Assembly: GCA_020444205.1 (NCBI GenBank) | Contig: JAHLLJ010000025.1 | Span: 1-37,298, forward strand | Reading direction: 5' to 3' | DNA length: 37,298 nt | From: Deltaproteobacteria bacterium | Lineage (GTDB): Bacteria > Desulfobacterota > Desulfarculia > Desulfarculales > Desulfarculaceae | In this document: piece after piece, positions 3,036 through 19,013 of the stretch | Position numbering within the stretch: position 1 is the stretch's first letter | Layout of the letters: every line of letters begins with the position of its first letter | Translations under genes and position numbers: made by a program | The notes under the pieces: model-generated | Told to the model about the DNA's origin: nothing | The model's database searches: none | Seen by the model: only the letters and a program-made list of their open reading frames with translations

Positions 3036-3734
3036 ATGTCCGAGATTAAACTTCTCAAAATGGGCCTCACTCCATATCCGGAAGGCTTGGAGTTGATGCG
3101 CCGCTTGGTCGCCCTTAAGCAACAGCGGCCCTCGCCCCAGGTGCTTTTGCTCCTGGAGCACGAGCCGGTGTTGACCATGGGCCGCCGGGCCGCGGACAAT
3201 GACATCCTGGCCCCGCCCGAATTGCTAAAGCGCGAGGGCATTGCGGTGCATCGGGTGGAGCGGGGCGGTCTGATGACCTATCACGGCCCCGGCCAACTGG
3301 TGGCCTATCCTCTGCTGGACCTGAATGTAATGAGGCTGGGGGTGGGCGATCTGGTGAGGGCCCTGGAGCGGACCCTGCTGGCCACCCTGGCCGATCTGGG
3401 GGTGGAAGGCAACCTGCACGAGGGGCATCCCGGGGCCTGGTACGGCGACAAAAAGCTGGCTTCCATCGGGGTGGCGGTCAAGCGAGGAATCAGTATGCAC
3501 GGCTTGGCCTTGAATTTGGACCCCAACTTGGAGCATTTTAACCTTATCAATCCTTGCGGCCTCACCGGCGCCTCGCCCATGACTTCGGTGCGCCTGGTGA
3601 CCGGCCACCAGGTGGACGCAGCCAAGGCCAGGGACCTCCTAGGGTCTCACCTGTGCCGCGAGCTGGGGCTCAGCTCTTCACCCTGGACCTTGGAGCGGGC
3701 TGAGGATTGCCTAATGGAGGGTAGATTGGTCTAG
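3036..3734 (+). CDS. lipB: Octanoyl-[acyl carrier protein]:protein N-octanoyltransferase
   Basis: LipB moves the octanoyl group from acyl carrier protein to the lysine of lipoyl domains, the first step of lipoate assembly in the cytoplasm. At 232 residues it has the full family pattern: the RGG..TYHGPGQLVAYP segment (residues 76-92), the KLASIGV motif with catalytic Lys140, and INPCG with acyl-accepting Cys174. The ribosome site before the ATG is weak (GCGGTAGC region), so expression may be modest. Its neighbour is the regulator of a lipoyl-dependent complex, and lipA lies 14 kb downstream, so the locus supplies its own lipoylation. The assignment is very secure. Confidence 0.95.
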   Translation: MSEIKLLKMGLTPYPEGLELMRRLVALKQQRPSPQVLLLLEHEPVLTMGRRAADNDILAPPELLKREGIAVHRVERGGLMTYHGPGQLVAYPLLDLNVMRLGVGDLVRALERTLLATLADLGVEGNLHEGHPGAWYGDKKLASIGVAVKRGISMHGLALNLDPNLEHFNLINPCGLTGASPMTSVRLVTGHQVDAAKARDLLGSHLCRELGLSSSPWTLERAEDCLMEGRLV

Positions 3735-3801: not shown

Positions 3802-5775
3802 GTGGAACAAAAAACTCCCCGGGGGAAATTGAGCGAAGCTTGGCAGCAGTTCGCCCACACCGGAAAGGTGGACCGCAGCGCCCTGCGCCGGGAAGTGGCC
3901 GACTCCTGGCAGCGTTGCTATCGACGGGGCCTCAGGCCCAACGCCCCCAAAGGCCCGGTAAAGCTTTCCTCCGCCCAACTAGCCCGTATCCGCGGGGCCA
4001 ACGCCAATTTTATTGAGGCAGCCTTGCCGTTCATGCGTTTTTTACAAAGCGCGGTGCGCGGCACTGGCTTCATTCTGGTGCTCACCAACGCCGACGGGGT
4101 GCTTTTGGACGTGTTCGGTGACGAAGACATCCTGAACATGGCCCGTGACAACAACTACGTGGCCGGCAGCAGCCGGGCCGAGGAGGAGGTGGGCACCAAC
4201 TCCATCGCTTTGTGCCTGGTGGAGAAAAAGCCCATCCAAGTGACCGGGCCCGAGCACTACAACGAGCGCCACCACGACTGGACCTGCTCCTCGGCCCCGG
4301 TGTTTTCGCCCGAGGGCAGCCTTCTGGGGGCCATCACCCTGTCGGGCAAGTCTTCCAGCGCCCATCTGCACACCCTGGGCATGGTCATCTCCGCCGCCGA
4401 GGCCATTGAGAACAAACTCAAACAGCGCAAGGCGGTCAAGGAAAAGGGCAACTACGAGACTCTGCTGGAGTCGATCCTGGGCTCCATATCCGAGGCGGTG
4501 ATCGCGGTGAACCACAGGGGAGTGGTCACTCACGCCAACCAGGCCGCCTGCCGCATGGCTGGTTTCTCCTCCCAAAAGGTGATGGGCCAGACCATAGACA
4601 AGGTGTTTCCCGGTCATCCCCTGCTCATGGACATGGCCCGCAACGGAAAGGACTACGGCAATGTGGAGGTGGGGGTGGACGGCCCCCGGGGACGTAACTA
4701 TTTTATTTTGCGGCCTTTTATGATCCGCGAGGATGAACAGCACTTCGGTTTTTTCCTGGTGATGAACGAGCGCAGCCGCTTTTTCAACGAGGTGCGTAAG
4801 ATATCCGGGCACAACGCCCGTTTCACCTTTGAGGACATCAAGGGAAGCTCCCCGGAATTTTTGCGCCAGATCAAGCTGGCCAAGATCGCGGCCGGAGCCG
4901 ACAGCCGGGTATTGATCATGGGCGAGACCGGCACCGGCAAGGAGTTGTTTGCCCAGGCCATACACAACGCCTCCGAACGCAACCAAGGGCCCTTTGTGGC
5001 CATCAACTGCGCGGCCATTCCCCGAGAGCTCATCGAGTCGGAGATCCTGGGCTACAAGGACGGGGCCTTCACCGGAGCACGCAAGGGCGGCCAGGTAGGC
5101 AAGCTGGAGCTGGCCGACGGGGGCACCATCTTCTTGGACGAGGTGGGCGAGATGCCCCTGGACGCCCAAACCAAGTTCCTCAGGGTGCTGCAAGACGGCA
5201 TGATCACCCGCCTGGGAGACAACCGCCCCCTCAAGGTGGATGTGCGGGTTATCGCGGCCACCAACGAGGATTTGGTGGAGCGGGTCTCCAGCAAGGGTTT
5301 CCGTCAGGACCTCTACTTCCGCCTGAGCGTGGTGGAGCTGAACATCCCGCCTTTGCGCCAGCGCCTGGAGGACCTGCACCTGCTGGTGGAGCATATCCTG
5401 GGGCGGGTTTCCTACAAACTGGGGGCCCGCCAACTGGGCATCTCCCCGGAGGCCATGGAGGTGCTGCGCAGCTATCCCTGGCCCGGCAACGTGCGCGAAC
5501 TGGGCAACATCCTGGAGATGGCCGCAATCGTATGCGACGGCCGGGAAATCCAGGTTGAGCACCTTCCCCAGCGGATCTTCCGTCCCGGCCTGGCCACTCA
5601 AGTAACTGAAAGCGTGCAGCCCATCAAGCTCATGGAAGCGGAGGTGCTGAAAAACGCCTTGGCCGAGTGCAAAGGCAACGTGGCCAAGGTGGCCCGCAGC
5701 CTGGGCCTTTCGCGCAGCACTATCTACCGCCGTATGAAGGAGTTAGGCATAGGCAAATCGGTAAGTTTTGATTGA
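3802..5775 (+). CDS. acoR: Sigma-54-dependent transcriptional activator, AcoR-like
   Basis: A 657-residue enhancer-binding protein, GTG start with a GAGGGAAGA ribosome site. Domains in order: N-terminal GAF-type sensor (about 65-205, with the EEEVGTNSIAL and LLGAITLSG blocks typical of AcoR), PAS domain (about 220-325, SEAVIAVN), AAA+ domain (about 345-570) with Walker A GETGTGKE (374-381), the sigma-54-contacting GAFTGA loop (421-426) and Walker B TIFLDE, and a Fis-type helix-turn-helix at 625-650. AcoR proteins sense acetoin or a related compound and switch on acoABCL promoters. The next operon has a matching -24/-12 promoter, so this is its likely activator. The inducer itself is inferred from family and context only. 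Confidence 0.93.
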   Translation: MEQKTPRGKLSEAWQQFAHTGKVDRSALRREVADSWQRCYRRGLRPNAPKGPVKLSSAQLARIRGANANFIEAALPFMRFLQSAVRGTGFILVLTNADGVLLDVFGDEDILNMARDNNYVAGSSRAEEEVGTNSIALCLVEKKPIQVTGPEHYNERHHDWTCSSAPVFSPEGSLLGAITLSGKSSSAHLHTLGMVISAAEAIENKLKQRKAVKEKGNYETLLESILGSISEAVIAVNHRGVVTHANQAACRMAGFSSQKVMGQTIDKVFPGHPLLMDMARNGKDYGNVEVGVDGPRGRNYFILRPFMIREDEQHFGFFLVMNERSRFFNEVRKISGHNARFTFEDIKGSSPEFLRQIKLAKIAAGADSRVLIMGETGTGKELFAQAIHNASERNQGPFVAINCAAIPRELIESEILGYKDGAFTGARKGGQVGKLELADGGTIFLDEVGEMPLDAQTKFLRVLQDGMITRLGDNRPLKVDVRVIAATNEDLVERVSSKGFRQDLYFRLSVVELNIPPLRQRLEDLHLLVEHILGRVSYKLGARQLGISPEAMEVLRSYPWPGNVRELGNILEMAAIVCDGREIQVEHLPQRIFRPGLATQVTESVQPIKLMEAEVLKNALAECKGNVAKVARSLGLSRSTIYRRMKELGIGKSVSFD

Positions 5776-6251: not shown

Positions 6252-7220
6252 ATGGATATTCCACCGAAAACTGTGCGCGAGTTGTACCGGACCATGGTGG
6301 TCATCCGGGCATTTGAAGAAAAAGTTCAAGATCTGTATGCCAGGGGTCACATTCCCGGCCTGGCCCACCTGTATATCGGCGAAGAGGCGGTAGCCGCTGG
6401 AGTGTGCGCCAATCTGGGTGACGAGGACTACATCACCAGCACCCACCGCGGTCATGGCCACGTCATCGCCAAGGGCGCCCAGCTCAAGCCCATGATGGCC
6501 GAGCTCTACGGCAAGGAGACCGGTTATTGCAAGGGCAAGGGCGGCTCCATGCACATCGCCGACGTTGACCTGGGCATCCTGGGGGCCAACGGCATCGCCG
6601 GCGGCGGCCTGCCCATCGCGGTGGGCGCCGGCCTTAGCTGCAAGATGAAATACCCCGGCAAGGTCACGGTGTGCTTCTTTGGCGATGCTTCCTCCAACAA
6701 CGGCACCTTCCACGAATCGCTGAACTTTGCCGCCGTGCACAAACTGCCGGTTATCTTTGTCTGCGAAAACAACGGCTTTGGTATCTCGGTCTCCCAGGCG
6801 CAGCACCAGGCCATAACCGACATCTCCATAAGGGCAGCCGGTTACGGCATGCCCGGGATCACCGCGGACGGCAACGACGTGCTCAGTGTGTATCTGTCCT
6901 CGGCCGAGGCCATCGAGCGGGCCCGCAAGGGCGGAGGCCCCACCCTGCTGGAGTACAAGACCTACCGGTGGCGGGGCCACCACGAAGGCGACCCCAACCA
7001 GGGCGGCCGCTACCGCACCAAGGAGGACATCCAAGCCTGGGTTGAGAACTGCCCCATCAAGCGTACGGAGCAGTACTTGACCAAAAACAGGGTGATGACC
7101 AAGAAACAGATGCAGGCGGTTTGGGATGAGGTGGAGAAGGAGATCGACGACTCCATCGAGTTTGCGGAACAAAGCCCGTTCCCGCCCCTCGAAGAAATGT
7201 TCCAGGACGTGTTGGCCTAG
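6252..7220 (+). CDS. acoA: 2-oxoacid/acetoin dehydrogenase complex E1 component, alpha subunit
   Basis: A 322-residue E1alpha of the branched-chain/pyruvate/acetoin dehydrogenase family. With E1beta it binds ThDP and passes an acyl group to a lipoyl arm. Visible features: the THRGHGH segment (residues 64-70), KGKGGSMH (94-101), and the ThDP/Mg motif from GDA (144-146) to NN (173-174). A start at 6168 would place the first codons upstream of the sigma-54 promoter, so the ATG at 6252, 2 nt after GGAGGGTGA, is chosen, and it fits the usual family length. The first gene of a four-gene operon. The AcoR neighbour favours acetoin or a related acyloin as substrate, but the sequence alone does not exclude a branched-chain oxoacid or pyruvate. 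Confidence 0.9.
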   Translation: MDIPPKTVRELYRTMVVIRAFEEKVQDLYARGHIPGLAHLYIGEEAVAAGVCANLGDEDYITSTHRGHGHVIAKGAQLKPMMAELYGKETGYCKGKGGSMHIADVDLGILGANGIAGGGLPIAVGAGLSCKMKYPGKVTVCFFGDASSNNGTFHESLNFAAVHKLPVIFVCENNGFGISVSQAQHQAITDISIRAAGYGMPGITADGNDVLSVYLSSAEAIERARKGGGPTLLEYKTYRWRGHHEGDPNQGGRYRTKEDIQAWVENCPIKRTEQYLTKNRVMTKKQMQAVWDEVEKEIDDSIEFAEQSPFPPLEEMFQDVLA

Positions 7221-7235: not shown

Positions 7236-8219
7236 ATGAGTCGCGTAATTACTTATGCTCAAGCGCTTAATGAGGCCCTGGCCTATTGCATGGATAAAGA
7301 CGACAGCGTGTTCGTCATGGGCGAGGACGTGGGCCGCTACGGCGGCATCTTCCAGGTGACCGCCGGATTGCAGGAACGCTTCGGCGTGGACCGGGTTATG
7401 GACACCCCCATCTCCGAGGCCGCCTTTGTGGGCGGCGCGGTGGGCGCGGCGGTGACCGGCATGCGCCCGGTGGTGGAGATCATGTTCATCGACTTCATCA
7501 CCGTGGCCATGGACATGGTGGTAAACCAGATGGCCAAGATGCACTTCATGTTCGGCGGCCGGGCCAAGGTACCCATGGTGCTCAGGGTGAACATCGGGGC
7601 CGGCCGCGGCACCGCCGCCCAGCACTCCCAAAGCTTCCACGCCATCTTCCAGCACATACCGGGCATCAAAATCGCCATGCCCGCCACTCCTCACGACGCC
7701 AAGGGCATGCTCATCGAGGCCATCCAGGATGACAACCCGGTGCTGTTCGTGGAACACAAGAAGATGTACATCGACAAGGGCGAGGTGCCCGAAGATGCCT
7801 ACACCGTGCCCCTGGGCAAGGCCAACGTGGTGCGTCCGGGCAAGGACGTGACCGTGGTGGCCACCCTGAACATGGTGGCCAAGGCGCTCACCGTGGCCGA
7901 GGAAATGGCCGGCAAGGGCGTGGACATGGAAGTCATCGACCTGCGCTCCCTGTGCCCCCTGGACCGCGAGGCGGTGCTCGCCTCGGTGCGCAAAACCGGC
8001 ACCCTGATCACCGCCGACGAGGGCTGCCACACCGGCAACATGGGCGCCGAGTTGGCGGCCATGGTGGCTGAAGAGGCCTTGGATTCGCTGCAGGCGCCCA
8101 TCGTGCGGGTGGCCGGGCCGGACACCCCGGTGGCCTTCAGCCCTCCCTTGGAGCAGGCCTTCATCCCCAGTGAGCAGGACGTCAAGGACGCGGTCAACCG
8201 GGTTCTGGAATATCTCTAG
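7236..8219 (+). CDS. acoB: 2-oxoacid/acetoin dehydrogenase complex E1 component, beta subunit
   Basis: A 327-residue E1beta (transketolase pyrimidine-binding plus C-terminal domains). The [13 protein letters not shown] block, the [15 protein letters not shown] block with the ThDP-activating glutamate, and the C-terminal [12 protein letters not shown] block are standard for the family. It completes the alpha2beta2 E1 active site with the product of the preceding gene, 15 bp away, and sits 12 bp before the E2 gene. A GGGAGGG ribosome site precedes the ATG. Substrate as discussed for the alpha subunit. Confidence 0.9.
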
Positions 8220-8231
8220 GGGGAGGCCGCC

Positions 8232-9257
8232 ATGCAACACAGCAGCAACAGCCAAGTCAGGGCCATGCCCGCCGCGCGCTTTTTGGCGCGCGAAAAGGGT
8301 CTGGACCTGGCGGCTATAAAAGGAAGCGGCCCGGGCGGCTGCATCCTGAAAAAAGACGTTGAGGCCTTTCATGCCGCTCCGGCCCAGGCTCCGGCCACCG
8401 CCGCCGTCCAGGGCAAGGTTACCAGCCTGGCCCGCAAGCTGGCCCAGCAAAAGGGCGTGGATCTGTCCACCGTGCAGGGCAGCGGCCCCCGCGGGCGCAT
8501 AACCAAGGCGGATGTGCTCAAAGCCGCGGCCGCTCCCGCTCCGGCGGGTGGCGCCATTGCCGGGCAGAAGGTGGCCGCCACCTCCATGCGCAAGACTATA
8601 GCCCGGCGCCTGTCGGCCTCGGCCTTTACCGCGCCGCACATCTACTTCTTCAGCGACGTGAAGATGGACTCCCTGCTGGCCCTGTACAAGGACATCAAGC
8701 AGGAGATCCTGGAGCGGCACGGCGTAAAAATATCGGTCAACGACCTTCTTATAAAAGCCGTTGCCCTGACCCTGGAGGAGTTCCCCCACATCAACGCCTC
8801 TTTTGACGGCGAGAACATCGAGGTGTGGGAGGACATCAACGTGGGCCTGGCCGTGGCCTTGGACGAAGGGCTTATCGTTCCCGCCATCTCCTCCGCCAAC
8901 CTGGCTTCCCTGTGGGATATCGCTTCCGAGCGGGCCGACCTGGTGGAGCGGGCCCGGGAGCGCAAGCTCCAGGCCGACGAGATTCAGCGGGGCACCTTCA
9001 CCATATCCAGCCTGGCTCAATATGAGATAACCCACTTTACGGCCATTATAAACCCGCCTCAGAGCGCTATCCTCTCGGTGGGCAAGACCGAAGAAAAGGT
9101 GGTGGCTGAAAACGGCCAGGTGGTGGTGCGCAAAGTTGCCACCATGGGCCTGTCGGTGGATCACCGCATTATCGACGGCGCGGTGGCCGCGCAATTTTTA
9201 ACTAGCTTGAAAAAGAAACTCGAACGGCCAGCGCTCATGTTCATGGAGCTGGGTTGA
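8232..9257 (+). CDS. acoC: Dihydrolipoamide acyltransferase (E2) lacking a lipoyl domain, with two PSBDs
   Basis: A 341-residue E2 core. The C-terminal catalytic domain (about 112-341) ends in the SVDHRIIDG active-site motif (His311, Asp315) and should form the trimer-based core that transfers the acyl group to CoA. The N-terminus is unusual. It has no lipoyl domain, and instead two peripheral-subunit-binding domains in tandem, at about 11-46 ([13 protein letters not shown]...GSGPGG) and 63-98 ([13 protein letters not shown]...GSGPRGRI), joined by Ala/Pro linkers. The first has Cys37 where the usual GRI arginine stands. The E1beta stop is only 12 bp upstream, so no lipoyl domain is hidden by a wrong start or a nearby frameshift. 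A GGGGGAGG ribosome site precedes the ATG. The lipoyl arm is supplied by the E3 encoded next. Confidence 0.9.
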
Positions 9258-9280
9258 TAGCAGAGCAAGGAGGCTGAAAA

Positions 9281-11059
9281 GTGGCCGTTGAAATAGTTCT
9301 CCCCATGCTTGGGGTGACGGTTGAAAAAGGCACCATCATCGAGTGGCTCAAGGTCGAGGGTGATACTGTAGCCAAGGGTGAATCCCTCTACGTGGTGGAG
9401 GCCGACAAGGTCACCACCGAGGTGGAGTCGCCCGGCGACGGCATCTTGGGCCGCATTCTGGTTCCGGCCGGGGTGGAGGTTCCCGTACTCACCGTGGTGG
9501 GCGTTATCGTGGCCCAAGGCGAGGCGGTTCCAGACAACTACGAGGCCGTGGCCGGGGCTTCCGAGGCTCCCGCCCCCGCCGCCCCCGCCGCGCCGGCCGC
9601 CGAGGCCGCGCCGGCACCGGAGCCCGCGCCCGATGCCTACAGCACGGCCACTCCCCAGGCCGACGATCAAGACTACGACTACGGCGTGGCCGTGATCGGC
9701 GGTGGTCCCGGCGGTTACGTGGCCGCCATCCGCGCCGGTCAGATGGGGGCCAAGGTGATTCTTGCCGAAATGGACGCCTTGGGTGGTACCTGCCTGAACC
9801 GGGGATGCATCCCCACCAAATCCCTGTTGTCTGACGTGCACCCCCTGCACCAGATCAGCAAGTCCGCGGTGTACACCGGCGCGGGCAAGCTGGCCGCCAA
9901 CCTGTCCAAGATGATGCAGCGCAAGGACGAGGTAGTAGGGCGCATGTCCGCCGGGGTGGAGGGTCTGCTCAAGGCCAATAAGGTCACCGTGTCCAAGGCC
10001 CAAGCCAAGTTCATCGACGCCCACACCCTGGAGCTCAGCGGTGCCGACGGCGCCAAGAAGGTGACCGCGGCCAAGGTGATCATCGCCACCGGCTCGCGCC
10101 CCTCGGAAGTGCCTGCCCTGCCGGTGGACGGCAAGGCGGTGATCAACAGCGATCACGCCCTCAGCCTGAAGCAGGTGCCCAAGTCCCTGGTGATCGTGGG
10201 CGGCGGGGTCATCGGTGTGGAACTGGCCACCATCTTCAGCCTTATGGGCTCCAAGGTGACCATAGTGGAGCTGCTCCCCAGTATCATCGCCGGGGAAGAC
10301 CCCGAGGCGGTGGCCGCCCTCAAGACGGCCCTGGAAGAGATGGGCATCGAGATCATCACCGAGGCCAGAGCCCAAAAGGTCAAAAAGGGCAAAAACGGCC
10401 CCTCGCTGGTGATCAACGGCGCGGACGGCAAAGAGCGCACCCTCAAGGCCTCGCTGGTGCTGGTTGCCGTGGGCCGCGCGCCCAACACCGAAGGATGGGG
10501 CCGCGACGCCCTGGGCCTGGAGATGGAAGGCCCCTTTGTCAAGGTGAACGCCCGCATGGAAACCTCGGTGCCCGGGGTCTATGCCATCGGTGACGTGGTG
10601 GGCAAGTCCATGCTGGCCCACACCGCTTCGGAAGAAGGCGTGGTGGCGGTGGAAAACCTCATGGGCGAAAACCGCCAGATGGACTACGACCGCATTCCCA
10701 ACTGCATCTATACCTTCCCGGAGGTGGCTTCGGTGGGCCTGAACGAGGCCCAGGCCGTCAGCCGGGGGCTCAAGGTTGGGGTGGGCAAGTTCCCCTTCCG
10801 TTTCAGCGGCAAGGCCGCGGCCATGGGCGAAGACCAGGGCCTGGTGAAGATCGTCAGCGACCCTGAGTTGGGCGAGATCCTGGGCGCCTGCATCGTGGGC
10901 CAGCACGCCACCGACCTTATCGGCGCGGTGGCCTTGGCCATGGACCTGGAGGCCGCGGTGGACGACTTGGGTGAGGTGGTCATGGGTCACCCCACCCTGG
11001 CGGAGACGGTGAAAGAAGCGGCCCTGGACTGCCTGGGGCGAGCCATCCACAAGCCCTGA
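9281..11059 (+). CDS. lpdA: Dihydrolipoyl dehydrogenase (E3) with N-terminal lipoyl domain
   Basis: A 592-residue fusion. Residues 1-80 form a biotinyl/lipoyl domain with the modifiable Lys43 in the EADKVTTEVES hairpin. Residues 91-125 are an Ala/Pro-rich swinging linker. The rest is a full E3: FAD motif GGGPGG (140-145), redox disulfide Cys171/Cys176 in GGTCLNRGCIPTK, a second NAD-binding GGGVIGVE segment, and the C-terminal HPTLAE catalytic pair (His570, Glu575). E3 reoxidises dihydrolipoamide with NAD+. The start is GTG at 9281, 7 nt after AAGGAGG. Lipoyl-E3 fusions are known (for example Clostridium magnum acetoin and pneumococcal E3). Here it is the only lipoyl domain in the operon, so it probably also carries the acyl group from E1 to E2. 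Confidence 0.93.
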   Translation: MAVEIVLPMLGVTVEKGTIIEWLKVEGDTVAKGESLYVVEADKVTTEVESPGDGILGRILVPAGVEVPVLTVVGVIVAQGEAVPDNYEAVAGASEAPAPAAPAAPAAEAAPAPEPAPDAYSTATPQADDQDYDYGVAVIGGGPGGYVAAIRAGQMGAKVILAEMDALGGTCLNRGCIPTKSLLSDVHPLHQISKSAVYTGAGKLAANLSKMMQRKDEVVGRMSAGVEGLLKANKVTVSKAQAKFIDAHTLELSGADGAKKVTAAKVIIATGSRPSEVPALPVDGKAVINSDHALSLKQVPKSLVIVGGGVIGVELATIFSLMGSKVTIVELLPSIIAGEDPEAVAALKTALEEMGIEIITEARAQKVKKGKNGPSLVINGADGKERTLKASLVLVAVGRAPNTEGWGRDALGLEMEGPFVKVNARMETSVPGVYAIGDVVGKSMLAHTASEEGVVAVENLMGENRQMDYDRIPNCIYTFPEVASVGLNEAQAVSRGLKVGVGKFPFRFSGKAAAMGEDQGLVKIVSDPELGEILGACIVGQHATDLIGAVALAMDLEAAVDDLGEVVMGHPTLAETVKEAALDCLGRAIHKP

Positions 11060-11106: not shown

Positions 11107-11173
11107 TAAATATCACTAGGCACTCCGCGACTGTGCCTGCCCATCGCGGCGCGCCCGAGTGACGCGTAGCGAG

Positions 11174-11190
11174 CCTCTTGTTTCAAGAGG
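11174..11190 (+). promoter_or_regulatory. Leader hairpin just upstream of the livH ribosome site
   Basis: A perfect 7-bp stem (CCTCTTG / CAAGAGG) with a TTT loop ends 5 nt before the TAAGGAGA ribosome site of livH. It has no T-tract, so an mRNA-stabilising or translation-modulating role is more likely than termination. A smaller inverted repeat, AGGCAC...GTGCCT, lies at 11118-11138. Confidence 0.4.
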
Positions 11191-11206
11191 CCCCCTAAGG
11201 AGACCC

Positions 11207-12076
11207 ATGGATATCTTGGCCGCGTTACCCGTGCAGGCCCTGCATGGACTGGTATACGGGATGCTGCTGTTCTTGGTGGCCTCCGGCCTTACCTTGATCT
11301 TCGGCATGATGGGCGTACTCAACTTCGCCCACGGTGCCCTGTACATGCTGGGGGCCTACTTCTCCTTTTCCATTCTGCAATGGACCGGTCATTTCTGGTT
11401 GAGCCTGTTGGTGGCTCCGCTTTTGGTGGCTCTGTGCGGGGCGTTGATCGAGCGCTTTTGCCTGCGCAAGGTTCACACCTACGGCCACGCCCACGAGCTT
11501 CTGCTCACCTTCGGCATGGCCTACATCATCGAAGAGTTGGTCAAAATATTCTGGGGCAACGAGCCGCTCAGGGTGGTGCTTCCCGCCATGCTGGCCGGGT
11601 CCATTCCCCTGCTGGGCATCGAGTACCCGGTTTACCGCCTGTTCATTCTGCTCGTGTCTATTGTGGTGTTCATCATCATGTTCTTCGTGCTCTACAAGAC
11701 CAGGGCGGGCATCATCGTGCGGGCCTCGGTGGCCAACAAGAACATGGTCGACGCCCTGGGCTTTAATGTGCCTTTGGTGTTTTTGGCTCTGTTCGGCATG
11801 GGCGCCTGGCTGGCCGGGCTGGCCGGGGTGATCGGAGGGCCCTACCTCATCACCAACCCGGCCATGGCCTCAACCATCATCATCGACCTGTTCGTGGTGG
11901 TGGTGGTGGGCGGCCTGGGCTCCATCCAGGGGGCGCTCATCGCCAGCCTGCTCATCGGTCAGTTGCAATCCATCGGCATCCTCATCCTGCCTCAGTTCGC
12001 CATCTTCTTTGAGTTCCTGCTTATGGCGCTGGTGCTGATCTTCCGGCCCCACGGCCTGATGGGAGAGAGCAAATGA
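11207..12076 (+). CDS. livH: Branched-chain amino acid-type ABC transporter permease
   Basis: A 289-residue inner-membrane permease of the LivH family with about eight hydrophobic segments. The GLTLIFGMMGVLNFAHGALYMLGAY block near the N-terminus and the GGLGSIQGALIASLLIGQLQ block near the C-terminus are diagnostic in outline. The ATG at 11207, 3 nt after TAAGGAGA, is preferred over an in-frame GTG at 11159 because the hydrophobic N-terminus begins there. The first gene of livHMGFK. Liv systems import branched-chain amino acids, but also amides and aromatic or short organic acids. The placement beside an acyloin/2-oxoacid complex suggests a substrate or precursor of that pathway. Confidence 0.9.
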   Translation: MDILAALPVQALHGLVYGMLLFLVASGLTLIFGMMGVLNFAHGALYMLGAYFSFSILQWTGHFWLSLLVAPLLVALCGALIERFCLRKVHTYGHAHELLLTFGMAYIIEELVKIFWGNEPLRVVLPAMLAGSIPLLGIEYPVYRLFILLVSIVVFIIMFFVLYKTRAGIIVRASVANKNMVDALGFNVPLVFLALFGMGAWLAGLAGVIGGPYLITNPAMASTIIIDLFVVVVVGGLGSIQGALIASLLIGQLQSIGILILPQFAIFFEFLLMALVLIFRPHGLMGESK

Positions 12077-13071
12077 CCTCTAGCGCATTGCTCAAGCGGT
12101 TGTTGTTGGCGGCTGGGCTGCTCCTGTTGGTGGCAATGCCCTTTTTGATCGGCGAGTATCCGCTCAACATGGTCATCACCATGATCATCTACTCGCTGTT
12201 CGCCCTGAGCTACAACATTCTCTTTGGTCAGGCTGGGTTGCTCTCCTTTGGCCACGCCGCCTACTTCGGGGTGGGCGCCTATACCTCGGTGTTGCTTTTC
12301 AAGAAACTTGGATTCAGCCTGCTGCCGGGCATCCTGGGCGCCGGTTTAGCCGGGGGTATCCTGGGCATACTTCTGGGACTGTTCGTAGTGCGTTTGGGCG
12401 GCACCTACTTCGCCCTGTTGACCCTGGCCTTCAACGCCCTGATCTACAACGGGGCTGAAAAATGGCGGGATCTCACCGGCGGCGAGGACGGGGTGGCGGC
12501 CATGCGCCCGGATCTGCACATCCCCTTCTTTGGCGATGTGGAGATGTTCACCACGATCCACTGGTACTACTTTGTGCTCATCGTGGTGCTGCTTTGCACC
12601 TGGTTCTGCTGGCACTTCACCCGCACCCCCCTGGGTCGGCTCAATGAATGCCTGAGGGAAAACGAGGACCGGGCGCGCTTCATCGGCTACAACGTGTATC
12701 TGTCCAAGGTGGCGGTCAACGTGATCAGCGCCTTTTTCGCCGGCCTGGCAGGCGGCATGGCCGGAGCCTTTCAAGAGTTCGTCACCGTGACCTTCATCAA
12801 CCTGGACAAGGCCACCGACGTTTTGATCATGACCTTTGTGGGCGGCTCGGGAACCTTCTGGGGGCCCATCCTAGGGGCCTGCTTCCTCACCTATCTCAAT
12901 CAAATCCTGAGTGATCTAACCGAACACTGGACCCTGATCCAGGGCATTCTCTTTGTATTGTTGGTCATGTATGCACCTCAGGGTCTCAGCGGGCTCTTGA
13001 TTTCGCTAAAAGACCGCTTTTGGAGTGCCCGGGCCGCCAAGCTGGGCCCGGCCGCCAAGGGGGAGGGTTAG
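12073..13071 (+). CDS. livM: Branched-chain amino acid-type ABC transporter permease
   Basis: A 332-residue second permease, LivM family, with about ten hydrophobic segments. The ALSYNILFGQAGLLSFGHAA motif and a C-terminal FVGGSGTFWGPILGA motif are characteristic. Its ATG overlaps the livH stop (ATGA), indicating translational coupling. It pairs with LivH as the transmembrane heterodimer energised by LivG and LivF. Confidence 0.9.
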   Translation: MTSSALLKRLLLAAGLLLLVAMPFLIGEYPLNMVITMIIYSLFALSYNILFGQAGLLSFGHAAYFGVGAYTSVLLFKKLGFSLLPGILGAGLAGGILGILLGLFVVRLGGTYFALLTLAFNALIYNGAEKWRDLTGGEDGVAAMRPDLHIPFFGDVEMFTTIHWYYFVLIVVLLCTWFCWHFTRTPLGRLNECLRENEDRARFIGYNVYLSKVAVNVISAFFAGLAGGMAGAFQEFVTVTFINLDKATDVLIMTFVGGSGTFWGPILGACFLTYLNQILSDLTEHWTLIQGILFVLLVMYAPQGLSGLLISLKDRFWSARAAKLGPAAKGEG

Positions 13072-13075
13072 TACC

Positions 13076-13825
13076 GTGAATATGTTGGAGGTCAAGGGAC
13101 TGTGTAAAAGCTTTGGTGATCTTGAGATCATCTGCGGGATCAACCTGGCCGTGGAAAAGGGTCAGCGCCACGCCATCATCGGACCAAACGGCGCGGGCAA
13201 GACCACCTTTTTCAACCTGCTCAGCGGCCACTACAGGCCCACGGCGGGCGACATCTATTTCAAGGGTCAAAAAATCAGCGGCCTGCAGCCGTATCGCATC
13301 AACCGGCTGGGCCTGGGCCGCTCCTTTCAGATAACCAACGTGTTTCCCGGGCTTACGGTGTTGGAAAACGTGCGCTCGGTGGTGCTCTCGCGCCATGGGG
13401 TTCGTTTCAACTTCTGGAGCACCGTGGCGGGCATGAACGAGATCAACCGCGAAAGCATGGGCATCCTGGAGCAGATAGGGCTGGATGCCAAGGCCGATCA
13501 CCTGGCCGGGGAAATGGCCTACGGTGAACAGCGCGCCCTGGAGATCGGCCTGGTGCTGGCCTCCCAGCCGGAGATGATACTATTGGACGAGCCCACCGCG
13601 GGCATGAGCATCGATGAAACCCGCGAGGCCGTCAAGCTGGTGGACCGGGTGACCGAGGGCAAGACCCTGATGATTATCGAACACGACATGGAGGTGGTGT
13701 TCTCCTTGGCGGACGTGATCACCGTGATCAGCTACGGCGAGGTGCTGGCCAGCGGCACCCCGGAGGAGATACGCAGCCATCCCAAGGTGCAAGAGGCCTA
13801 TCTGGGGACGGAAGTCGCATGCTGA
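13076..13825 (+). CDS. livG: Branched-chain amino acid-type ABC transporter ATP-binding protein
   Basis: A 249-residue cytoplasmic ATPase: Walker A GPNGAGKT (36-43), a LivG-typical degenerate signature (AYGEQRALEIG in place of LSGGQ), Walker B MILLDEPTAG and the switch histidine in IEHDME. The GTG at 13076 is chosen because GGAGGG lies 9 nt upstream. A longer in-frame start at 13025 would run back into livM and add a low-complexity N-terminus, and an ATG at 13082 is also possible. It overlaps livF by 7 bp. Confidence 0.9.
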   Translation: MNMLEVKGLCKSFGDLEIICGINLAVEKGQRHAIIGPNGAGKTTFFNLLSGHYRPTAGDIYFKGQKISGLQPYRINRLGLGRSFQITNVFPGLTVLENVRSVVLSRHGVRFNFWSTVAGMNEINRESMGILEQIGLDAKADHLAGEMAYGEQRALEIGLVLASQPEMILLDEPTAGMSIDETREAVKLVDRVTEGKTLMIIEHDMEVVFSLADVITVISYGEVLASGTPEEIRSHPKVQEAYLGTEVAC

Positions 13826-14529
13826 AGCTGGACAAGGTCAATACTTATTACGGCGAGAGCCATGTGCTCTTCGACATAAGCCTGGAGGTGAACCAGGGCG
13901 AGATAGTGGCCTTGGTGGGGCGCAACGGAGTGGGCAAGACCACCACCATGATGACCATCATGGGCCTGGTGAAACCTTCCTCCGGCTCCATCTCCTTCAA
14001 AGGCAAGGAGATAGCGGGCAAGACGCCCCATGAGATAGCCATGGCCGGGTTGGGCTTCGTGCCCGAGGAGCGCTGGATATTTCCCAACCTTACGGTGCAT
14101 CAGAATCTCTTGATGGGCATTAAACCCGGCCACATGAATAAGCAGGTGGACGACGGCTGGACCATGGAGCGGGCTTACGACAACTTTCCGCGCCTGGCCG
14201 AGCGGCGCAACCAAAAGGGCGGGGTGCTCTCCGGGGGTGAGATGCAGATGCTCACCATCGTGCGCACCCTCATGGGCAACCCGGACTTGATCCTCATCGA
14301 CGAGCCCACCGAGGGCCTGGCACCCATCATCGTGGAGCGAGTCAACGAGGTGATCCATCAGATCAACCACACCGGCACCACGGTGCTGCTGGTGGAGCAA
14401 AAGCTCAACGTGTGCCTGGGCCTGGCCCAGCGTTTGTACGTGCTCAGCAAGGGCGACATTAAGTGGACCGGCACTCCGGACGAACTGGAGGCACGCCAGG
14501 ACATCCGCAAGGAGTACCTGGAGGTTTGA
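13819..14529 (+). CDS. livF: Branched-chain amino acid-type ABC transporter ATP-binding protein
   Basis: A 236-residue second ATPase with Walker A GRNGVGKT (34-41), the signature LSGGEMQ, Walker B LILIDEPTEGL and a VEQ switch motif typical of LivF. It overlaps the livG stop, so the two subunits are probably made in equal amounts. The protein PEERWIFPNLTV segment is a family hallmark. Confidence 0.92.
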   Translation: MLKLDKVNTYYGESHVLFDISLEVNQGEIVALVGRNGVGKTTTMMTIMGLVKPSSGSISFKGKEIAGKTPHEIAMAGLGFVPEERWIFPNLTVHQNLLMGIKPGHMNKQVDDGWTMERAYDNFPRLAERRNQKGGVLSGGEMQMLTIVRTLMGNPDLILIDEPTEGLAPIIVERVNEVIHQINHTGTTVLLVEQKLNVCLGLAQRLYVLSKGDIKWTGTPDELEARQDIRKEYLEV

Positions 14530-14548
14530 TGAAATAAGGGATACAAAA

Positions 14549-14564
14549 GGCCGCCCCGGCGGCC
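14549..14564 (+). other. Intercistronic hairpin between livF and livK
   Basis: GGCCGCC-CC-GGCGGCC forms a compact GC stem (effectively 6 bp with a 4-nt loop) in the 65-bp gap before livK. Hairpins at this place often mark processing or partial termination that lets the binding protein be made in excess. Confidence 0.4.
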
Positions 14565-14594
14565 GGCAACCTTACCAGGGAGAGAGGTAGGACT

Positions 14595-15803
14595 ATGAGG
14601 AAATTTGGATTGATTTTGGCTATCGCCGCTGCCTTGGCCATGGTGGCCACCGCGGCCGTGGCTGGTGGCGTGGTGAAATTCGGCGTCAACGAGATTCGCT
14701 CCGGCGCCTTCAAGTCCAACGGCGACCGCACCATCTGGGGCATCCAGGCCGCGGTCAAGGAAGCCAACGACGCAGGCGGCCTGTTGGGCAAGAAGATCGA
14801 ACTGGTGATCATGGACAACCAGATGAAGGGCGAGATCGCGGTGCGCAACGTAAAGCGCATGGTCCTGCAGGACAAGTGCGAAGTCATCATCCAGGGCTCC
14901 TCCTCGGGCGTGGGCGGCGCCATCGCCCAGACCATGCCCCGCTACAAGAAGATCTACCTGGACACCAACGCCGAGGCCATGGGCATCACCGGCGAGAACT
15001 TCACCCCCTACACCTTCCGCACCTGCTTGAACGCGGGAATGCACGTCAAGGCCCTGGCTCACTACTTCGCCAAGAAGGGTCTCAAGAAGGTCTTCTTGAT
15101 CAACCAGGACTACTCCTGGGGTCATGACGTGGCCAAGTACTACAAGTTGTTCATCGAGAAGCTGGCTCCCGGCACCGAGGTGGTGGGCAGCGAGTTCCAC
15201 AAGGTGTTCAACAAGGACTTCGGCCCCTACATCAGCAAGATTCAGGCCTCGGGCGCGGACTACGTGATCAGCGGCAACTGGGGCACCGACCTGACCCAGC
15301 TTATCGTGCAGTCCCGCAGCCTGGGCATGAACCTGCCCATCGGCTGCACCTTCTTGGATGACGACGCGGTGGGCGCGGTGGCCGGCGATGCGGCCATCGG
15401 CTGCGTGCAGGCCAACATGTACCTGCTGGGCGTGAACAACCCCCGGGCCAAGCAGTTCGAGGACACTTTCCACAAGACCAGCGGCGGCAAGTGGCCCAGC
15501 TTCGTGATCATGGAGGCCTACCTGGGCACCAAGATGTACATCGAGGCGGTTAAAAAGGCCGGCAGCTTTGATACCGACAAGATTATCAAGGCCTTTGAAA
15601 ACATGACCTACACCGGCCCCGTGGGCAACATGACCATGCGTAAGGAGGACCACCAGAACCAGAGTCCGGCGGTGGTCGGCGTGGTGAAGGGCAAGACCAA
15701 GTACTACCCCTTCGCCTATCCCACCCCGGTTATGGTGCTCCCGGCCAAGGACGTCAGCCTGACGTTGGAGGAAAGCGGCTGGAAGCCCTACAAGGGTAAG
15801 TAA
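14595..15803 (+). CDS. livK: ABC transporter substrate-binding protein, LivK/type-1 periplasmic family
   Basis: A 402-residue periplasmic binding protein. The N-terminus is a Sec signal peptide with a hydrophobic core and probable cleavage after AVA (about residue 23). The mature part has the type-1 fold: VKFGVNEIRSGAF, then WGIQAAVKEANDAGGLLGKKIELV with ligand-domain helices, a QGSSSGVGGAIA loop and DYSWGHD. This last-in-operon position is less common than livK-first. Ligand specificity cannot be read from the sequence. A GGGAGAGAGG ribosome site precedes the ATG, and a strong terminator follows the double stop. Confidence 0.92.
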   Translation: MRKFGLILAIAAALAMVATAAVAGGVVKFGVNEIRSGAFKSNGDRTIWGIQAAVKEANDAGGLLGKKIELVIMDNQMKGEIAVRNVKRMVLQDKCEVIIQGSSSGVGGAIAQTMPRYKKIYLDTNAEAMGITGENFTPYTFRTCLNAGMHVKALAHYFAKKGLKKVFLINQDYSWGHDVAKYYKLFIEKLAPGTEVVGSEFHKVFNKDFGPYISKIQASGADYVISGNWGTDLTQLIVQSRSLGMNLPIGCTFLDDDAVGAVAGDAAIGCVQANMYLLGVNNPRAKQFEDTFHKTSGGKWPSFVIMEAYLGTKMYIEAVKKAGSFDTDKIIKAFENMTYTGPVGNMTMRKEDHQNQSPAVVGVVKGKTKYYPFAYPTPVMVLPAKDVSLTLEESGWKPYKGK

Positions 15804-16324: not shown

Positions 16325-17053
16325 ATGAGTTTACAAGGCAAAAGGGCGTTGGTTACCGGCGGAGCCGCCGGGCTGGGCCTGGCCATCGCCACCGCCCTGG
16401 CCGAGGCGGGCGCCAAGGTGGCCGTCTGGGACTGGCAAATAGAGTCGGCCAACCTACCGCCGGAGCGCTTTCCCATCACCGCCAAGGTGGACGTGTCCTC
16501 CAGCCTCAGGGTGGAAGCCGCGGCCAAGGAGGTTTTGGATCGCTGGGGTGGGCTGGACATCCTGGTCAACAACGCGGGCATCTGCATAACCGGATCGGTG
16601 CTGGAGCTGACCGAGCAAGACTGGGACCGGGTGATGGCCGTAAACCTCAAGGGCACCTTTTTATGCTCCAAGGCCTTTGCAAAGGCCATGCAGGAGCAGA
16701 AGTCGGGTAAGGTGATCAACCTGGGCTCGGTGGCCGCCAAGCTGGGGGGCATCGTTTCGGGCAGCGCCTACAGTGCCTCCAAAGCGGGCGTAATTTGTTT
16801 CACCAAGTCCCTGGCCAGGGAGATGGCTCCCTATGGGGTCAACGTCAACGCCATCGCCCCCGGGGTGATCGTAACCGACATGACCAAGGACCTGTCCAAG
16901 GGTGACTTCAGCAACTATGAGTCCGGCATACCCCTGGGCCGGGTGGGCGAGGCCAAGGATGTGGCCGCCCTGGCCCTGTTTTTGGCCGGGCCGGACAGCG
17001 ACTACCTGACCGGCGAGATCATCGACATCAACGGCGGCCAGTACATGGACTAG
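16325..17053 (+). CDS. Short-chain dehydrogenase/reductase (FabG-like)
   Basis: A 242-residue classical SDR. Cofactor motif TGGAAGLG (11-18), Asp36 at the end of beta-2 (favours NAD(H) over NADP(H)), NNAG (82-85), and the catalytic Ser135, Tyr149, Lys153 (YSASK). The C-terminal GGQYMD is usual for FabG-like members. It probably interconverts a secondary alcohol and a ketone. Next to a zinc alcohol dehydrogenase and an AcoR-controlled complex, acetoin/butanediol-type redox is one possibility. This is inference from context. Confidence 0.87.
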   Translation: MSLQGKRALVTGGAAGLGLAIATALAEAGAKVAVWDWQIESANLPPERFPITAKVDVSSSLRVEAAAKEVLDRWGGLDILVNNAGICITGSVLELTEQDWDRVMAVNLKGTFLCSKAFAKAMQEQKSGKVINLGSVAAKLGGIVSGSAYSASKAGVICFTKSLAREMAPYGVNVNAIAPGVIVTDMTKDLSKGDFSNYESGIPLGRVGEAKDVAALALFLAGPDSDYLTGEIIDINGGQYMD

Positions 17054-17083
17054 GGTTTGGGCTTGATCCGGGGGAGGCGAATG

Positions 17084-18118
17084 ATGAAGGCGCTGCGTAA
17101 ACTGGCCGGCGGCGAAGGCCATGTGGAGTTGGTGGACATCCCCACTCCCTCGCCCGGCTCCGGCCAGGTGTTGCTCAGGGTAAAAAGCGTGGGCATCTGC
17201 GGCACGGACCTGCACATCTGGGAGGGCCGCTTTGACAAGGTGCGCCCGCCGGTGACCCTGGGCCACGAGTTCGCGGGCGAGGTGGCCGAGCTGGGCCCGG
17301 AGGTGGTGGGCTGGCAAAAGGGCCAGCGGGTGGTCAGCGAGAGCCAAGCCTCCTCCTGCGGTACCTGCGTTTACTGTGAGCAGGGTCAGAGCAATGTATG
17401 CCCCGAGCGCCTGGCCTATGGCTATGGGGTGGACGGGGGCATGGCCGAGTATGCCTTGGTGCGCGCCGACGGCCTGCACGCCCTGCCCGAAAACGTCAGC
17501 TTTCAGCAAGGGGCCATGGTGGAGCCTTTGGCCGTGGCCGTGCACGCGGTCATGGAGCGGGGTGTAACCCTGGGCCAGGGGCCTGCTTTGGTCAGCGGTC
17601 CGGGTCCCATCGGCTTGCTGGTGCTCATGGTGCTGGCCCAGGCCGGGGTCCCGGCGCTGGTCTGCGGCACCTCCAAGGACCAGGCCCGTCTGGAATTGGC
17701 TGCCCGCCTGGGGGCGGGGGCTACGGTCATGGTGGACCAAGAGGACCTGGGCCAGGCGGCCCAGGATTTCACGAGCGGCCTGGGCTTTGCCGCGGCCTGG
17801 GAGTGCTCCGGCGCGGGTCCGGCCCTTAGCGCGGCCCTGACCAACGTGCGCCGTCAGGGAGAGGTGGTGCAGGTGGGGCTGGCCGGGGGAGCGCCCACGG
17901 TGGACGTGGACCAGCTCACCCTCAAGGAGATCACCCTGCGTGGGGCCTTTGTGCACAACCGGGAGACTTGGGAGCGCGCTGTCCAGCTCTTGGGGGAGGG
18001 GGCTCTGGACCTGACCCCGCTTATCAGCGCGGAAATGCCGCTAGGCGATTGGCAAAGCGCCTTTGAGCTTTCCCGCGATCAGGCGGGAATCAAGTATCTG
18101 CTGCGGCCGGGAGAGTAG
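17084..18118 (+). CDS. Zinc-dependent MDR alcohol dehydrogenase (threonine/butanediol dehydrogenase-like)
   Basis: A 344-residue medium-chain dehydrogenase. Catalytic zinc ligands Cys39 (GICGTD), His61-Glu62 (GHEFAGE) and Glu147 (VEPLA). Structural-zinc cysteines 92, 95, 98 and 106. Rossmann motif GPGPIG (172-177). The GTDLHIW and GHEF segments resemble threonine, sorbitol and (R,R)-2,3-butanediol dehydrogenases. ATG 17084 has GGAGG 6 nt upstream. The ATG at 17081 or a TTG at 17057 are alternatives. It is co-transcribed with the SDR and lipA. A role in feeding a ketone or acyloin to the E1-E2-E3 complex is plausible. Confidence 0.85.
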   Translation: MKALRKLAGGEGHVELVDIPTPSPGSGQVLLRVKSVGICGTDLHIWEGRFDKVRPPVTLGHEFAGEVAELGPEVVGWQKGQRVVSESQASSCGTCVYCEQGQSNVCPERLAYGYGVDGGMAEYALVRADGLHALPENVSFQQGAMVEPLAVAVHAVMERGVTLGQGPALVSGPGPIGLLVLMVLAQAGVPALVCGTSKDQARLELAARLGAGATVMVDQEDLGQAAQDFTSGLGFAAAWECSGAGPALSAALTNVRRQGEVVQVGLAGGAPTVDVDQLTLKEITLRGAFVHNRETWERAVQLLGEGALDLTPLISAEMPLGDWQSAFELSRDQAGIKYLLRPGE

Positions 18119-18125
18119 GTAAGCC

Positions 18126-19013
18126 ATGGCCCAGGGAGGAACCCCTCACAATCGCCCCGCCTGGCTGGTGCAAAAGGTGCCGGACCAGGACAGCCTGCGC
18201 CGCATGCGCTCGCTCATGGAGGGCCGAGCCCTAAATACGGTGTGCGTGGAAGCCCAGTGCCCCAACCAGGGCGAGTGCTTTTCCTGCGGCACGGCCACCT
18301 TCCTCATTCTGGGCGACATCTGCACCCGGGGCTGCCGCTTCTGCGCGGTGAAAGGCGGACGGCCCGCGCCGGCCGACCCGCAGGAACCACTCCGCCTGGC
18401 CCAAACCGCCGCCGAGCTGGGGCTCAAGCACGTGGTCATCACCTCGGTGACCCGCGACGACCTGCCCGACCAGGGGGCGGGACAGTTCGCCGAGGCGGTG
18501 CGCCAGGTGAAGAAGCTTAGCCCCAACACCAGCGTGGAGGTGCTCATCCCCGACTTCCAGGGCCGGGTGGACCTGTTGGATATGGTGGCCCAGGCCGGAC
18601 CCGAGGTGATCGCCCATAACCTGGAGACCGTACCCCGCTTTTACGGCCCGGTACGCCGGGGGGCCATTTACCAGCGCTCCTTGGAAGTGGTGGCCAAGGT
18701 GAAGCAGGTGGCCCCTAAGGCGGCCAGCAAGTCGGGCATAATGCTGGGCCTGGGCGAAACCCGCGACGAGGTGCTGGGAGTGCTGGCTGATCTGCGCGGG
18801 GCCGACTGCGACATCCTCACCTTGGGGCAGTATTTGGCCCCGTCCACGGCGCATGCTCCGGTGGAGCGCTTTGTGCCGCCCGAGGAGTTCGAGGAGCTCA
18901 AGCGGCAGGCCCTGGCCATGGGCTTCAAGTACGTGGCCTCCTCGCCCTATGTGCGCAGCTCCTACCGGGCCGACCGGGCCTGGCGGGCGGTGCAAGAGGC
19001 AGCGGGCGCTTAG
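18126..19013 (+). CDS. lipA: Lipoyl synthase (radical SAM)
   Basis: A 295-residue LipA, which inserts two sulfurs into protein-bound octanoyl groups. Both iron-sulfur motifs are present: the auxiliary cluster cysteines Cys40-x4-Cys45-x5-Cys51 and the radical SAM Cys66-x3-Cys70-x2-Cys73 (CTRGCRFC). The C-terminal RSSY motif, whose serine ligates the auxiliary cluster, is also there. It begins 8 bp after the MDR stop, so it is made with the catabolic enzymes. Together with lipB it completes de novo lipoylation of the E3-borne lipoyl domain. Confidence 0.96.
   Translation: MAQGGTPHNRPAWLVQKVPDQDSLRRMRSLMEGRALNTVCVEAQCPNQGECFSCGTATFLILGDICTRGCRFCAVKGGRPAPADPQEPLRLAQTAAELGLKHVVITSVTRDDLPDQGAGQFAEAVRQVKKLSPNTSVEVLIPDFQGRVDLLDMVAQAGPEVIAHNLETVPRFYGPVRRGAIYQRSLEVVAKVKQVAPKAASKSGIMLGLGETRDEVLGVLADLRGADCDILTLGQYLAPSTAHAPVERFVPPEEFEELKRQALAMGFKYVASSPYVRSSYRADRAWRAVQEAAGA

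Follow-up and report, generated by a model that had tools for sequence, protein, structure and literature searches.

Where does the acyl-carrying arm of an oxoacid dehydrogenase reside when its E2 begins directly with subunit-binding domains (PSBDs) and has no lipoyl domain (LD)? This question is raised by a four-gene operon in a stretch of 37,298 nucleotides (here called the window; contig JAHLLJ010000025.1, assembly GCA_020444205.1) from a deltaproteobacterium of the family Desulfarculaceae. Analyses of its sequence and of related loci make it highly probable that the operon codes for an acetoin/2-oxoacid dehydrogenase with the LD at the N-terminus of E3 and not on E2, that this domain was most likely relocated from the E2 of the same operon family, and that E3 would serve as the acyl arm.

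Operon organization and domain layout

The genes are arranged in the order E1 alpha, E1 beta, E2 and E3, all on the + strand, with intergenic gaps of 15, 12 and 23 bases, and a ribosome-site-like stretch lies upstream of the start codons of E2 and E3. The gene for E1 alpha (6252..7220), a TPP-dependent dehydrogenase alpha subunit, was recognized by PF00676 (293 bits, query from 6246) and its start was placed at the ATG of MDIPPKTV. E1 beta (7236..8219) matched PF02779, PF02780 and NF006667 (372 bits, cut-off 321), the E2 acyltransferase (8232..9257) is the sole PF00198 match in the window genome, and the E3 dihydrolipoyl dehydrogenase (9281..11059) matched TIGR01350 (525 bits, cut-off 409). 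The parts expected of a 2-oxoacid/acetoin dehydrogenase complex are present, namely a TPP-dependent E1 alpha and beta, an E2 with PSBD and the catalytic motif DHRxxDG, and an E3 with the functional motifs CxxxxC and HPTxxE, while the LD with a lipoylatable lysine that is usually, though not universally, found on E2 is located on E3 instead.

The initial annotation held that E2 starts with binding domains and lacks an LD, and the Pfam search of 8232-9257 agreed, as it returned two PF02817 E3_binding matches (whole-protein E 2.2e-33) followed by PF00198 and no PF00364. The first PSBD occupies aa 9-44, the second about aa 62-97 and the catalytic core aa 112-338, with DHRIIDG at 310. The AlphaFold model showed PSBD-like helix pairs at 13-22/40-48 and 65-74/92-100 and then the core, with low confidence at residues 1-7. 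Alignment indicated that the window E2 starts 8 residues ahead of its Pfam PSBD match, inside the region that forms the LD-PSBD linker in its sisters. No LD was missed on E2, since its frame opens no earlier than 8220, only 12 bases separate E1 beta from the E2 ATG, and the LD model run against all window frames of >=80 codons found no LD besides that of E3.

The annotation had also described a complete LD with Lys43 and an Ala/Pro linker on E3, and both were recovered. PF00364 matched residues 4-72 (59.2 bits, cut-off 22.1), ahead of Pyr_redox_2 and Pyr_redox_dim; Lys43 lies within EADKVTTEVES, the linker (81-133) has 53 residues of which 19 are Ala and 10 Pro, and the FAD/NAD core carries GGTCLNRGC at 168 and HPT at 570. 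E3 consequently has the three parts of an LD-bearing E3, an N-terminal LD, a linker and a dihydrolipoyl dehydrogenase. In the AlphaFold model the E3 core was good, while the LD, covered by three alignment rows, was modelled with low confidence (pLDDT about 36).

Genes for lipoate attachment and synthesis are located on either side of the operon, each as one copy in the window: lipB, coding for lipoyl(octanoyl) transferase (3036..3734, + strand; PF21948, 139 bits; TIGR00214, 143.5 bits, cut-off 83.6), and lipA, coding for lipoyl synthase (18126..19013, + strand; TIGR00510, 369 bits, cut-off 310). Downstream of E3 in two related genomes, a LipB-LipA fusion was observed (L037, 7538-9157, + strand; L038, 1174-2796, - strand), a frame of about 540 codons whose N-terminal half matches LipB and whose C-terminal half matches LipA. 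The GAF-PAS-sigma54 activator encoded at 3802..5775 (+ strand; PF00158, PF01590, PF00989 and PF02954) had DhaR as its top NCBIfam match, at 420 bits under the cut-off of 551, and from its position is a probable regulator of the E1-E2-E3 operon. E1 matched PDH- and BCKDH-type chains and models alike, and no specific diol or acetoin model exceeded its cut-off for the SDR (16325-17053) and Zn-ADH (17057-18118) genes. The substrate may be acetoin or a 2-oxoacid; the neighbouring genes for the sigma-54 activator, SDR and Zn-ADH are weak pointers to a role of the acetoin type. The window further contains an acetolactate-synthase-like TPP enzyme upstream of lipB (755-2533; NF004772, 909 bits, cut-off 673) and, after E3, a putative branched-chain-amino-acid/urea-type ABC transporter (11159-15803), also present in G006, of whose genes three, for a permease, an ATPase and the binding protein, were profile-scanned, the remaining two being assigned by eye.

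Conservation in the genus and other lipoyl proteins

A protein search of 60 relatives gave an E2 match in 14. In three congeneric genomes (G004, G005 and G006) E2 is 86-90% identical over all 341 residues and an E2 without LD is followed by an LD-bearing E3, the contig of G004 ending within E3. Including the window genome (G000), four of the eight genomes of the genus that were covered have this layout; among the other congeneric genomes searched, G001, G002 and G007 had no E2 match and G003 had two distant ones (38-40%). The window belongs to a MAG of 342 contigs, 82% complete, so that an assembly or gene-calling artefact might conceal an LD on E2. However, identical junctions were found in the three further assemblies, one of which (G006) is a single-contig chromosome of 4.48 Mb, and together with the scan of the window frames they rule out a hidden LD; we give an artefact practically no chance of accounting for the layout. 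As the domain is present in sister operons, its loss could also mean that the E2 gene is degenerate and the complex inactive or partial, for example a lipoamide dehydrogenase with its own substrate. This is very improbable, as the E2 frame, DHRIIDG and both PSBDs are kept in the four genomes at 86-90% identity, and 10 of 20 fetched Bacilli loci, described below, keep the same layout.

Other lipoyl arms were searched for with PF00364, PF01597, PF00676 and, on G000 alone, PF00198. In G000, G005 and G006 the E3 of the operon was the only lipoyl-type PF00364 protein found, the remaining PF00364 matches being biotin-type by motif (MKM, MKL, MKT) or weak and partial in long frames. Each of these genomes has one full-length E1_dh match, the E1 alpha of the operon, with partial matches of 33-37 bits also in G000 and G005, and a second E2 was absent from G005 and G006 by protein search (one match each). 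Homologues of the GcvH type (PF01597) occurred in each of the five genomes searched, with 9 matches in G000 (about 5 full length, several partial at contig ends) and 7 in G006, and lipoyl synthase was likewise found in each of the five. Genomes G004 and G078 have the window layout plus further LD-bearing E2s, and in these the LD of E3 need not be the sole arm. Of the separate lipoyl-bearing E2s or stand-alone lipoyl proteins that, if they worked with this E1, would speak against the initial annotation, the search of G000, G005 and G006 found none of the lipoyl-type PF00364 kind, while GcvH-type proteins are present.

The many GcvH-type proteins and the further LD-bearing E2s of G004 and G078 might indicate that the acyl arm is borrowed from another lipoyl protein, either a second E2 or a free one, and that the LD of E3 is accessory. 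Small LD genes beside E1 genes in other bacteria point the same way; frames of 83-90 codons with an LD follow E1 beta in L081 (5950-6219), L082 (5971-6219) and L083 (5980-6228), loci from Rhizobiaceae, Nitratireductor and Burkholderiales. However, the lack of another lipoyl-type PF00364 in the single-contig G006 as well as in G000 and G005, with one full-length E1 alpha in each, makes a borrowed arm unlikely, and no case of a 2-oxoacid E1 working with GcvH is known to us. That the arm has most likely moved to E3, as originally proposed, is supported by the conservation of the LD and its lysine in the four congeneric genomes having the operon, by its being the sole lipoyl-type PF00364 found in three of these four, and by the finding that its nearest non-congeneric LDs are on the E2s of orthologous operons.

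With the arm on E3, LipB and LipA would place lipoate on Lys43, LipB probably being the enzyme that modifies this LD, and E1 would acylate the E3-borne arm. The E3 dimer would dock on one of the tandem PSBDs of E2, with the 53-residue linker tethering the LD; at the E2 core the arm would hand its acyl group over to CoA, and the FAD site of the same E3 or of a neighbouring one would then reoxidise the dihydrolipoyl group. The predicted arm is doubly jointed, running from LD through linker, E3 dimer, PSBD and a further linker to the E2 core.

Orthologous operons and origin of the lipoyl domain

The phylum scan covered 395 genomes, of which 142 had an E2 match at E <= 1e-20. Among the matches listed, a frame of <=350 codons together with coverage of the first PSBD was seen for the window, G006 and G078, frame length being a proxy for LD absence and domain reading being confined to fetched loci. 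The frame of G005 is longer solely from an open upstream frame, and the phylum frequency leaves out G093, G294, G336 and G431, whose short frames lie at the ends of contigs. Loci L039, L040, L043 and L044 code for an E1 that is 64-67% identical to that of the window, an E2 of the form LD-PSBD-PSBD-E2 and a plain E3, the C-terminal part of which is cut off in L040, while L045, with an E1 68% identical to that of the window, has an LD-less E2 and an LD-bearing E3. The Desulfobacterota operons L039, L040, L043 and L044, and those of MAG loci such as L054, L057 and L060, are orthologous to the window operon and share its tandem PSBDs, but their LD is on E2 while that of the window is on E3.

Between the window LD and 12 E2-borne LDs of the operon family, identity is 61.5-75.6%, and it falls to 53-56% for four more distant ones. 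Among the best 60 rows of this comparison, the E3-borne LDs of Bacilli were 42-47% identical and all belonged to the group with two LDs; the LDs of L094-L103 were not among these 60. The LD tree, constructed from 78 columns and 63 rows and having many open forks, long branches that meet and clades named after the layouts had been seen, grouped the window LD with the E2-borne LDs of the operon family in a clade of 20 rows (98/98), nearest, with weak support (84/30), to the E2 LDs of L056-L058/L067. For this tree, LDs of the same type and sequence were collapsed into a single row, L095-L103 of the Bacilli entering as three distinct rows, and L050, L051, L053, L062 and L064 (genomes already in) as well as L069 and L072 (near copies of L065 and L071) were omitted.

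Since the orthologous operons have the LD on E2 and the window LD groups with those, the domain most likely moved from the E2 of its own operon family to E3, one gene downstream. In the core trees, the window E3 core clustered with L039/L052 and the window E2 core stood apart. Because the neighbours of the LD differ from those of the E3 core, the LD may possibly have been taken from the operon of a relative rather than from its own, and this conflict between the LD and core trees slightly lowers our confidence in the favoured explanation. The window clade and L045 were not sisters in the trees, but a single clade of both was not rejected by any data set, p-AU being 0.195 for E3, 0.158 for E2, 0.252 for E2 and E3 together, 0.347 for the four genes and 0.405 for E1. 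These phylogenies suggest at least one LD move in Desulfobacterota, possibly two.

Bacilli and comparison with known systems

The initial annotation assumed that an LD-bearing E3 is usually paired with an E2 that keeps its own LD. In a scan of 398 Bacilli genomes, at least 27 matches run over query residues 1 to 591 or 592, and 20 of the 27 listed were fetched. Contrary to the assumption, ten of them (L094-L103) have an LD-less E2 with two PSBDs and an LD-bearing E3. The other ten (L084-L093) resemble the window in having an LD at the N-terminus of E3 and differ in that their E2 also carries one. The proposed search for operons with a PF00364-less E2 beside an E3 with PF00364 was positive in the four congeneric genomes, in L045 and in half of the fetched Bacilli loci. 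The solved E3 chain 5u25_A (602 residues) aligns over residues 4-587.

Within each genome of L084-L093, protein identity between the E2 LD and the E3 LD is 88.5-100% (10/10) and DNA identity 82-92%, while E2 LDs compared between genomes are 77-100% identical in protein (median 85%), with a median of 79% in DNA. This suggests copying or gene conversion between the adjacent E2 and E3 genes, and no more than suggests it, because LDs from different genomes are already so similar that the excess is modest. On the LD tree, a grouping of the 17 E3-borne LDs as one clade was rejected (p 4.8e-5; short alignment, groups named afterwards), and likewise one clade of the window genus (four rows), L045 and the three L095-L103 LDs (p 3.6e-4; same alignment and naming), a test that excluded L094, a long branch placed elsewhere. 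The E3-borne LDs of Desulfobacterota and Bacilli are apparently of separate origin. Two PSBD hits were found in 12 of 13 distinct LD-less E2s (the 13th has one) versus 29 of 45 LD-bearing E2s, a hint only, the rows being related and the model built from the same family. Rather tentatively, and the more so for the modest excess in L084-L093, the LD could be regarded as a mobile module with several transfers from E2 to E3 (one or possibly more in Desulfobacterota, perhaps two, and separately in Bacilli), probably via a dual-copy state. Tandem PSBDs would make such a transfer tolerable, since E1 and the arm-bearing E3 would no longer compete for one docking site.

In Neisseria and Alcaligenes the E2s keep LDs beside an LD-bearing E3. 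The S. pneumoniae dihydrolipoamide dehydrogenase, 'harboring its own substrate' in the title of Hakansson and Smith 2007 (J Biol Chem 282:29521), is reportedly an E3 with its own LD, as in the window. PMC7873978 states that PDH LDs are usually on E2, cites Alcaligenes eutrophus and Neisseria meningitidis as exceptions with the LD on E3, and places the LD of the Mycoplasma hyopneumoniae PDH on PdhD, its E3, as in the window; western blot and LC-MS/MS showed lipoylation of PdhD, at K42, and PdhD was identified as a distinct lipoylated band of whole cells. M. hyopneumoniae, likened here by its described domain placement, belongs to another lineage and obtains lipoate via salvage ligases, while the window has lipB and lipA beside the operon. 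In PMC6609329, the JCVI-syn3A model takes E2 as the lipoylated subunit, and mycoplasmas need not be alike in this respect. Passages of PMC4433191 gave nothing on the LD, and a literature search, mostly outside subscription papers, gave no description of an LD-bearing E3 with an LD-less E2 in Desulfobacterota.

The E2s of the Bacilli loci L095 and L103, presumably from streptococci, match NF011416/PRK14843 over the full length of the model and far above its cut-off of 429. They share with the window an E2 of PSBD-PSBD-core, an LD-bearing E3 and the order E1a-E1b-E2-E3; the window E2 (239 bits) and that of L094 (251) are both below the cut-off. The model is also passed by the LD-bearing E2 of L087 (468) and is not confined to LD-less E2s. 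This NCBI E2 model, of 347 positions, starts past any LD, and with the ten Bacilli loci and PdhD K42 of M. hyopneumoniae (PMC7873978) it takes away the novelty of the 'distinct catalytic geometry' first claimed for the window.

Orthologous operons of the phylum differ in the site of the arm, even between two genomes of one family (L044 versus L045), so the effect of arm placement on channelling can be tested directly. The window operon adds one more example that speaks against regarding the acyl-carrying arm as necessarily a part of E2. An LD-less E2 with an LD-bearing E3 is already known in other bacteria and is not a new kind of arrangement; what the present loci add to those systems is a set of matched operons that bear the arm on E2 or on E3, together with evidence for separate origins.
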